Both the position numbers and the translations under genes were made by a program. The notes under the pieces are model-generated. The model ran no database searches, was not told the origin of the DNA, and saw only the letters and a program-made list of their open reading frames with translations. From a virus, in the IMG/VR virus record IMGVR_UViG_3300017748_000122, positions 1-25,364 of that record: 25,364 nt of DNA. The stretch is one strand, 5' to 3'. This document shows, in pieces, positions 11,966 through 20,996 of the stretch; position 1 is the first letter of the stretch; the number at the start of each line of letters is the position of its first letter.

Positions 11966-13507
11966 ATGTCAAACGCAAAGCGATTTGCGGACATATTTGA
12001 TGGCCTAAAGCTTGCTTATGGCACTTATAAAATTGACCGCAAAAAAACAAACGGAAAACAGGCTGGTAAAGCCTCGGTCGTGAAAGAACCTCGGGCCCTC
12101 TCTCATTGGGAGGGCCATCTTTCGGGGAAGGGTGATTCCATTGGCATCATTCCGATCAATGAAGATAACGCCTGTAAGTGGGGCTGTATCGACGTTGACA
12201 CCTATCCTTTGGACCATAAAGAGGTTATATCTAGGATTCGCCGAATAAAGCTGCCTTTGGTAGTTTGTCGCAGTAAATCAGGAGGGGCTCACCTTTTTCT
12301 ATTTACTTCCGAGTGGATATCCGCTGCGAAAATGCAAGAGGTGCTCCAACATATTGCAGGGGCTCTTGGCTACGGAGGTTGTGAGATATTTCCCAAGCAA
12401 AAATCTTTGCAACTGGATCGTGGAGATGTGGGCAACTTTCTGAATATGCCTTTTTATGATGCAGAGGAGGGGCTGCGCTATGCTATAAAAGATGATGGGC
12501 AGTCTGCCACCTTAGATGAGTTCTTTGAGTTATATGAACAGTTTGTGCAAACGTCGGAACAGATTGACGCATTAACCATAGAAGACGACCCAGAGACCCC
12601 CGTAAAAGATGGGCCTCCGTGTCTTCAGACATTATGTAGACAGCAGATTTCTGAAGGCGGTCGTAACTCTGGGCTTTTTAATTTGGGTGTTTATCTACGC
12701 AAGGCTTATCCGGATTCATGGGAATCAGAGATCTTAGTGTACAACGCTAAGTATTTAGACCCTCCGCTACCTCTGGCTGAAGTCAACACTGTGGCTAAAC
12801 AGCTACTAAAAAAAGACTATGGCTTTAAGTGTAAGGATGCGCCTATTAATGCTTACTGCAACTCAGAAGTGTGTCGGACTCGTAAGTACGGCATCGAAGT
12901 GGGCCTTGCAGGGGCCGAGATAGCGAATCTTCGCAAATATAATAGTAGCCCACCTATTTGGTTCTTAGACGTCAATGGGACGCCCTTAGAGCTTGATACT
13001 GAGGGTTTGATGATGCAGGGCGCATTTCAACGCGCTTGTGTAGAGCAATTGAACTTTATGCCTCAAACAATGTCAAAGCCGACATGGGAAGGGCGCATCA
13101 ATCAACTGCTTACTGATATGAGCGAGACCGATGGTAGCGTTGTCGAAGTTTCCCAAGATGCCAGTATTTCAGGACAGTTCTATGAGTTTTTAGAAGAGTT
13201 CTGTACAGCCATGCAAAAAGCTGAAAGCAGAGAAGAGATACTACTGCGTAGGCCGTGGCTCGATGAAGAGGAAGACCTCATTTACTTTCGTTTAAAAGAC
13301 TTTGAAGGCTACCTGCGAAAGAATAGGTTCTTTGAATATAAGAGTCATAAGATTGCGCAACGGCTGCGGGACATCAACGGCGACGCTACGTCTTTAAAGA
13401 TTAAAGGCAAGACAACTCGCGTTTGGGCTATCCCCAGCTATGAAACGGGTTCCGGTGTGATTGCTACACCAACCCTTGGTTCTACCGGCGAAAGGGCACC
13501 CTTCTGA
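11966..13507 (+). CDS. AEP-type DNA primase (archaeo-eukaryotic primase superfamily)
   Basis: This 513-aa protein would synthesise primers for phage DNA replication. Residues 73-80 (GCIDVDTY) carry the D76-x-D78 metal-binding pair, and CRSKSGGAHLFLF (101-113) carries the S-x-H-type nucleotide motif with H109, both hallmarks of AEP primases. E140 and D151 are candidate further acidic residues, in EIFPKQ and LDRGDVGNFLNMPF. A helical primase C-terminal region follows, with GGRNSGLFNLGVYLRKA. It contains a small Cys cluster (KC, YCNSEVCRTRKYG, about residues 290-310) that may bind metal. No TOPRIM or DnaB-type helicase domain is seen. The 3' end overlaps the helicase start (TGATG). The start has only a weak ribosome site; no better alternative was found. 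Confidence 0.75.
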   Translation: MSNAKRFADIFDGLKLAYGTYKIDRKKTNGKQAGKASVVKEPRALSHWEGHLSGKGDSIGIIPINEDNACKWGCIDVDTYPLDHKEVISRIRRIKLPLVVCRSKSGGAHLFLFTSEWISAAKMQEVLQHIAGALGYGGCEIFPKQKSLQLDRGDVGNFLNMPFYDAEEGLRYAIKDDGQSATLDEFFELYEQFVQTSEQIDALTIEDDPETPVKDGPPCLQTLCRQQISEGGRNSGLFNLGVYLRKAYPDSWESEILVYNAKYLDPPLPLAEVNTVAKQLLKKDYGFKCKDAPINAYCNSEVCRTRKYGIEVGLAGAEIANLRKYNSSPPIWFLDVNGTPLELDTEGLMMQGAFQRACVEQLNFMPQTMSKPTWEGRINQLLTDMSETDGSVVEVSQDASISGQFYEFLEEFCTAMQKAESREEILLRRPWLDEEEDLIYFRLKDFEGYLRKNRFFEYKSHKIAQRLRDINGDATSLKIKGKTTRVWAIPSYETGSGVIATPTLGSTGERAPF

Positions 13508-19373: not shown

Positions 19374-19598
19374 ATGGACCAAAATAAATGGAAATCGGTA
19401 GTGGTGCCCAGAGAGACGTACTACGATATGCGGTTGATTGCAGAAATCGAAGGCCGGACCATTTCTCGGCAGCTTCGCATGATTGTGGAGCAGTGGATGG
19501 ACGAGCATTTGACCGACAATGACAATGAAAGGCTGGCGACAGCTAAAATTAAGTTAGAGATTGAGGAAGGTAAGCATAACACTAGCTTTTCAATTTGA
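19374..19598 (+). CDS. Ribbon-helix-helix DNA-binding protein
   Basis: This 74-aa protein has a strong GGGGG ribosome site 8 bp before its ATG. Residues 6-12 (WKSVVVP) fit the beta ribbon, 13-26 the first helix and 29-44 (TISRQLRMIVEQWMDE) the second helix of an Arc/MetJ-type repressor, followed by an acidic tail. It would bind DNA as a dimer and act as a regulator. Its last 9 bp overlap the end of the convergent HTH gene on the minus strand, so transcription of one may interfere with the other. Its target is unknown; the divergent promoters at 19752-19810 and the inverted repeats at 20228-20303 are candidates. Confidence 0.72.
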   Translation: MDQNKWKSVVVPRETYYDMRLIAEIEGRTISRQLRMIVEQWMDEHLTDNDNERLATAKIKLEIEEGKHNTSFSI

Positions 19599-20165: not shown

Positions 20166-20429
20166 GAAAAACCACTATATAGCTGTGGCTGGAGATTTAT
20201 TTTTTATTTTTTTTTTAAAAAAAGGACGTAACCGACGTAACCACGTAACCTTTGGGCTGAGAAGCACGGCCCAAGGGGCTTTGCGAGGTTACGGCAAGGT
20301 TACAGAAGCCACGCCTCTCGTTAATCTTCAAATTCCGTTAATGTCCTTATATTGTTTTTTTTATTTTTTTTTATTCCAGCCCTATATAACAGTATAGACT
20401 TTTTTAAAAGATCCACATAAACTTCCGGC
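20166..20429 (+). other. Non-coding A/T-tract region upstream of small terminase gene
   Basis: No gene is seen in this 264-bp gap. It starts with a short dyad (CCAC at 20172-20175, GTGG at 20185-20188), then a long T tract followed by an A tract (about 20197-20223), then the GTAACC/GGTTAC cluster (20228-20303). A second T-rich tract (about 20354-20374) follows, then a dyad CTATA (20382-20386) and TATAG (20393-20397) that may overlap a -10 element. A/T tracts on both sides suggest bent or easily melted DNA. The place just before the small terminase gene is where lambda keeps its cos site. Confidence 0.55.
20228..20303. repeat. GTAACC / GGTTAC repeat cluster around a hairpin
   Basis: GTAACC occurs at 20228-20233, 20237-20242 and 20245-20250, and its inverse GGTTAC at 20287-20292 and 20298-20303. 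Between them TTGGGC (20252-20257) and GCCCAA (20269-20274) form a stem that extends to 9 bp with one wobble pair, with an 11-nt loop. The whole is a large imperfect dyad. Spacings of 8-9 bp on the left and 11 bp on the right approach one helical turn. It is a candidate binding array for the terminase small subunit, a replication initiator or a repressor. Confidence 0.6.
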
Positions 20430-20996
20430 ATGGACTTAGAATTAGAAAAGAAAAAGCAAGGCCGCCCTAAAGGCTCCGGACGAATTGGCGTCAATCGCCT
20501 TCTGACTCGAAAGCAAGAACTTTTTGTTAAGGAGCTTGTGAGCAAGGACGGTCAAATTACCAAAAGGCAAGCGGCGATCAATGCTGGCTATCCCGAGGGT
20601 TCAGCACACACTCGAGCCTATGATTTAACTAATCCCAAAAAAACTCCTCACGTTTGTGCGGCAATTCGTCGATATCGACAAGAGCTTGATGAAAAATATG
20701 GCATAGATTTCAAGCGACATGTGAGAGATTTAAAACTTATTCGTGACGAAGCTCTGGCTGCTGGAGCTTTTTCGGCTGCGACGCAGTGCGAAATAGCACG
20801 GGGTCGTGCGCATGGCGATATATATGTTACCAAATCCGAAGTCAGGCATGGTTCAATCGACCAGATGGATCGCGATCAGGTTATGAAAGCTTTGAAGGAA
20901 ATTCAAGAGCAAAATGGAAATGCCATGGGAACTATCATCGACGTCACGCCCGAAGAAAAAGGTGATAAAGGAAAGCAAGCTTTGGCAACGAGTTAA
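20430..20996 (+). CDS. terS: Terminase small subunit
   Basis: This 188-aa protein would recognise the packaging site and recruit the large terminase subunit. It begins with a basic AT-hook-like motif (GRPKGSGR, 11-18). An HTH-bearing Terminase_2-type domain follows (about 25-100), with LTRKQELFVKELV, ITKRQAAINAGYPEGSAHTR and a long helix RYRQELDEKYGIDF. The C-terminal part is helical, probably for oligomerisation, and ends in a charged tail. No clear ribosome site precedes the ATG, so initiation is unusual or weak. The large subunit is not in the window. The nuclease gene at 20914 overlaps its end by 83 bp. The repeat cluster upstream may be its target. Confidence 0.8.
   Translation: MDLELEKKKQGRPKGSGRIGVNRLLTRKQELFVKELVSKDGQITKRQAAINAGYPEGSAHTRAYDLTNPKKTPHVCAAIRRYRQELDEKYGIDFKRHVRDLKLIRDEALAAGAFSAATQCEIARGRAHGDIYVTKSEVRHGSIDQMDRDQVMKALKEIQEQNGNAMGTIIDVTPEEKGDKGKQALATS

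Follow-up and report, generated by a model that had tools for sequence, protein, structure and literature searches.

Iteron origins with a covarying initiator are known from phage lambda, where the initiator is the O protein, and lambda also has repeats upstream of its small terminase gene, i.e., the cosB R-sites of cos. In ColE2-type Rep proteins, a primase, a PriCT part and a C-terminal HTH are found in one protein, which recognises, unwinds and primes the origin (PMC5304414, PMC5862659). The C-terminal winged helices of such primases have already been proposed to recognise origins (PMC5862659). In PLE, the repeats of the origin covary with the DNA-binding part of RepA, the initiator, and the two are exchanged (PMC8263062). 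A further mode of repeat recognition is found in TcpK of plasmid pCW3, a winged-helix protein reported to bind the 9-nt tandem repeats GGAACTTTA via its beta-wing in the major groove (PMC6137059).

The locus described here lies in a linear fragment of a virus record (hereafter the window, meaning the whole 25,364 bases analysed). We propose, with a probability of about 0.78, that positions 20175-20389 are an iteron-like phage replication origin that is bound by the C-terminal winged helix of an archaeo-eukaryotic primase (AEP). This single phage protein has an AEP and may, like ColE2 Rep, combine it with a PriCT_1-like part and a C-terminal winged helix. However, ColE2 origins have been called the smallest reported, while the present site is symmetric, with five or more short copies and two A/T tracts, and belongs to a phage of approximately 55-60 kb that has its own PolA and helicases. 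PLE swaps the whole RepA_N domain, whereas in the phages it is single wing residues that go with single bases, and a primase that is the proposed reader. As origin/initiator covariation by domain exchange is known from PLE, the pairing of phage array and primase is a variant of a known phenomenon. No description of the array site or of the covariation between primase and repeat core was found in the literature searched, which left out most subscription papers.

The window carries ejection and tail genes, genes for an SNF2-like helicase, a Pam3 gp34-like protein, the AEP primase, a UvrD helicase and PolA, as well as lysis genes, a thermonuclease-like gene, the RHH protein, the array, the small terminase subunit (TerS), a VRR-NUC-like protein and a methyltransferase; some of these names come from a reading of the translation only. 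The array is found approximately 200 bp ahead of the TerS gene (Table 1). Its short repeats stand in tandem at one intergenic site, as in iteron-type origins, and the A/T-rich region that adjoins repeats in such origins is also present and is a putative unwinding region. The A/T-only runs flanking the array are the two longest of the window. With up to three mismatches allowed, the triple pattern occurs once in the window, compared to 0.02 occurrences expected from dinucleotide shuffles. The three direct and two inverted copies, the long A/T tracts on both flanks, the position before the small terminase gene and the AT-hook-like TerS N-terminus had all been pointed out in the first-pass annotation, and all were confirmed; the AT-hook-like stretch at the start of TerS reads GRPKGSGR. 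The 9-bp hairpin that it placed between the repeats stood in part. The arms are present, but eight of the nine positions pair, and the element is the weakest of the array as its sequence varies among relatives. The folding energy was unremarkable in the nine loci folded, so a conserved hairpin element is not supported, and no known RNA family matched. GC skew, named in the same annotation as a check for an origin, gave a mixed outcome: there is no consistent switch at the array, and while G001 and G006 have their detrended minimum close to it, the other contigs do not.

Table 1. Positions of the array elements, the primase and the neighbouring genes in the window.
Feature	Position	Strand	Remarks
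Left arm: CTATATAG (20175-20182), CTGGA (20189-20193), A/T-only run of 29 nt (20195-20223)	20175-20223	+	Relatives have an equivalent arm; mirror image on the right
Three direct core repeats GTAACC (20228-20233, 20237-20242, 20245-20250)	20228-20250	+	Start-to-start spacing 9 and 8
Central imperfect hairpin, arms of 9 nt (20249-20257 and 20269-20277)	20249-20277	.	Between the two repeat groups; sequence not conserved
Two inverted core repeats GGTTAC (20287-20292, 20298-20303)	20287-20303	-	Right copies switch with left copies in other classes
Right arm: A/T-only run of 21 nt (20355-20375), TTCCAG (20374-20379), CTATATAA (20382-20389)	20355-20389	-	Mirrors the left arm
Archaeo-eukaryotic primase (AEP, PriCT_1-like, C-terminal winged helix)	11966-13507	+	Proposed reader, from covariation
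Winged-helix part, residues ~438-490 (helix 460-469; wing strands 473-479 and 482-490)	13277-13435	+	Predicted
Codon of wing residue 478 (Ser in the window)	13397-13399	+	Tracks the core
Small terminase subunit (TerS) gene	20430-20996	+	Neighbour; Pfam Terminase_2; rejected as core reader
RHH protein gene	19374-19598	+	Rejected as core reader

Two scans of IMG/VR with TerS gave 155 loci, including a few contigs entered twice. Nearly all loci with enough upstream sequence share the array layout ahead of TerS, and the same layout is kept in more than 100 related loci, normally one per genome. The shared order runs from a CTATATAG-like motif, an A/T tract and three direct copies at 9,8 (or 9,9) spacing on the left, to a central stretch, more copies, another A/T tract and another CTATATAG-like motif on the right. 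The copies are degenerate in a few loci (L042, L045, L053, L055, L120, L132, L135 and L156). Among the 29 joined contigs, 27 have one array each and the remaining two have imperfect copies; the other triple repeats reported by the scan of these contigs are without the array layout. The repeat core is G-N-N-A-C, most commonly GTAAC, and also GTTAC, GGGAC, GGTAC, GGAAC or GGGAT. Between close relatives the core switches in all copies of the array together, right-hand copies included. These right-hand copies are inverted in most classes, but in the GTAAC class they can point either way, a pattern that favours binding sites over a stem.

The core covaries with the wing of the primase. At residue 478, V or S is found with GTAAC, L or T with GTTAC, Q with GG(G/T)AC and K with GGAAC. 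The corresponding wing pairs are VV, IV, TV, LV and TS for GTAAC, ML, AL and VT for GTTAC, VQ for GGGAC or GGTAC, and SK and NK for GGAAC. This rule was recorded before the test contigs were collected with primase queries, and it holds in all 58 distinct primases from contigs with both features, including 32 outside the discovery set (the 81 locus entries behind the test include some contigs more than once). In the Q class, the second variable base (GGGAC versus GGTAC) is not firmly predicted; L233, for example, has Q-I-K with GGGAC. Close relatives illustrate how few residues accompany a switch. The primases of the near-minimal pair L226/L229 differ at 4 of 513 residues, two of which form the wing pair (ML/TV), and the cores are GTTAC and GTAAC. 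Similarly, the wings of L246 and L247 are one residue apart (V/L), with cores GTAAC and GTTAC.

Changes were counted by simple parsimony on a primase tree built without the C-terminus. The core changes on 10 branches, and residue 478, with 10 changes in all, changes on eight of these, counts that recombination between genes would weaken. The probability of such a branch overlap is 4e-9 uncorrected, and 2.5e-5 after multiplication by 6000 columns. The residue adjoining 478 changes on five of the 10 core-change branches. In seven other usable families analysed on the same tree, no column exceeded five, and the columns reaching five change mostly elsewhere. One of the families, labelled p76 in both screens, is the RHH protein, so that, apart from the primase, the tree-based screen takes in seven usable families that are all different. 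Twelve conserved families, from up to 28 genomes, were also screened by mutual information, and a single column stood out, with a score of 0.86; it lies close to the C-terminal end of the AEP primase. The next-best score in any family was 0.75, for the portal, from eleven sequences only. TerL and portal were covered by the mutual-information screen with few genomes, and the gp34-like protein, which has no usable alignment column for the tree-based screen, was likewise covered by mutual information only.

Other proteins were considered as readers of the core and rejected. The DNA-binding region of TerS is identical across phages with GGGAT, GGTAC and GGGAC (L033, L036 and L037), and also between GTAAC and GTTAC phages. 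In the tree-based screen no TerS column tracks the core. VRR-NUC is identical in L033 (GGGAT) and L036 (GGTAC), and the RHH protein is identical both in L219/L221, from GGTAC and GGGAC phages, and in L226/L229, from GTTAC and GTAAC phages. As TerS, VRR-NUC and RHH stay identical across core switches, none of the three sets the core. SNF2, the 191/217-aa protein, UvrD and PolA lacked a tracking column in both screens.

Based on this covariation, the replicative primase is the most likely reader of the repeats. The protein matches the AEP-TOTE profile at 2.2e-12, within the cut-off, and PriCT_1 at 1.7e-3, below the curated cut-off, and the fold of its AEP domain matches CRISPR-associated Prim-Pol (CAPP) and RepB'. 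The prediction puts residue 478 in the first strand of the wing, immediately following the putative recognition helix. For the C-terminal part, the best fold match is TcpK in complex with oriT. The two systems would be alike in a winged helix that reads short tandem repeats via the wing; however, TcpK is a conjugation protein and not a primase, and the structural match is weak (E 0.04). We do not claim homology, and treat TcpK as a lead on how the repeats might be read.

With the primase as probable reader and A/T tracts on both sides of the repeats, an origin is the most likely function of the array. The iteron-type origin that the first-pass annotation had offered as an alternative is thus supported by the covariation with the phage primase, and the alignment of relatives that it had named as a check revealed a conserved layout, cores that switch in concert and a primase residue that tracks them. 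For binding, melting, priming and initiation at the array we infer the following course. The C-terminal winged helix of the primase would bind the tandem GNNAC repeats, and the wing strand bearing residue 478 would read the two variable bases of the core. The duplex would then open at the neighbouring A/T tracts, where the primase could lay the first primer for the phage DNA polymerase A, together with the phage helicases.

Arrays are also found outside the group of the window. A distant phage group, with primases approximately 40% identical to the query, has the same kind of array with other cores; here the wing pair QA occurs with GTAAACA (L265, L284) and QH with GGATACG (L285, L294). In these distant relatives the equivalent arrays are found ahead of the primase, approximately 6-10 kb upstream, and not downstream of it. 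Cultured phages with approximately 30% identical primases carry arrays as well. Kokobel2, VLCpiS6a, K21lambda1, PSA28 and PMBT28 combine K with GGAAC, Barton and JeffCo have V and GTAAC copies but no perfect triple, and DSL-LC04 has S and scattered GTAAC copies. In Acinetobacter phages, A is found with GCAAC (SH-Ab 15497, DMU1, AbaSI_2) or with mixed GAAAC/GTAAC (53, pB23), and S with mixed GGAAC/GTAAC in Bhz9. The mixed arrays run GAAAC/GTAAC/GAAAC or GGAAC/GTAAC/GGAAC. In Acinetobacter phages with A or S, then, the first variable base is not fixed, and so the rule is not universal. The cultured loci L505, L506 and L507, with two arrays each, may have two origins, or an origin and an autoregulatory operator.

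The main rival to an origin is that the primase binds the array mainly to regulate the terminase/late operon or early genes, and that no initiation takes place there. SH-Ab 15497, Kokobel2 and VLCpiS6a have two arrays each, one of them directly upstream of the primase gene where an autoregulatory operator would sit, and the other array of SH-Ab 15497 is found just upstream of TerS. However, in the group of the window the primase gene is not preceded by an array, a consensus search detected no sigma-70-like promoter at the array in the window, and the mirrored layout with two flanking A/T tracts fits an origin better. We consider such an operator role unlikely.

A cos/pac packaging site bound by TerS as in lambda, which the first-pass annotation had favoured, would explain why the array sits just before TerS, between the variable region and the late genes, and it would agree with direct and inverted repeats accompanied by A/T tracts. 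Unlike in lambda cos, the identity of the repeats does not follow TerS, as seen from its invariant DNA-binding region and the lack of any tracking column. The displaced arrays of the distant relatives also speak against packaging, as does, weakly, the lack of a pile-up of metagenome contig ends at the array. Altogether, this makes a packaging site highly improbable. The same annotation had named the RHH (CopG/Arc-like) protein as a third candidate ligand, and its gene is conserved in these phages, but a protein that is identical across core classes has a negligible chance of being the one for which the array is an operator.

If the primase does read an origin here, an abundant group of marine phages, most of them uncultured, would have both a place where replication starts and a rule by which it is recognised; the literature searched gave no origin for this group. 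Cultured phages of Klebsiella, Salmonella, Providencia and Acinetobacter follow the rule in part, and it is thus testable with purified proteins. Since all repeat copies have switched again and again in step with one or two primase residues, the phages offer a natural experiment on how protein and DNA coevolve, and prompt the question of why origins switch. More tentatively, a wide range of phage AEP initiator primases might carry a short specificity code in the wing, made up of residue 478 and its neighbours, with an origin identity that switches repeatedly. If so, one or two substitutions would switch the identity of the origin while all repeats follow, and relatives or satellites infecting the same cell would perhaps be denied a share in the replication machinery.

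A few arrays have more than one core. In L094, the left copies are GGGAC and the right copies GGTAC, i.e., the array is hybrid or transitional. L262 (1700-1960) has left copies mixed between GTACTCA and GTTCTCA and uniform right copies of GTGAGAACA, and is possibly an array in transition. In L031 (511-650), and also in L014, an additional array, alike in layout but with another core (three copies of GTGTCCTAG and inverted copies), is found upstream of the GTAAC array.

The genes upstream of the array differ among close relatives right up to the array, and the HTH and 75-aa ORFs found there in the window were rejected as readers, being present in the closest relatives only. L006, L007, L008 and L012 have near-identical arrays and TerS genes after entirely different upstream genes, and the break falls on the left edge of the element.
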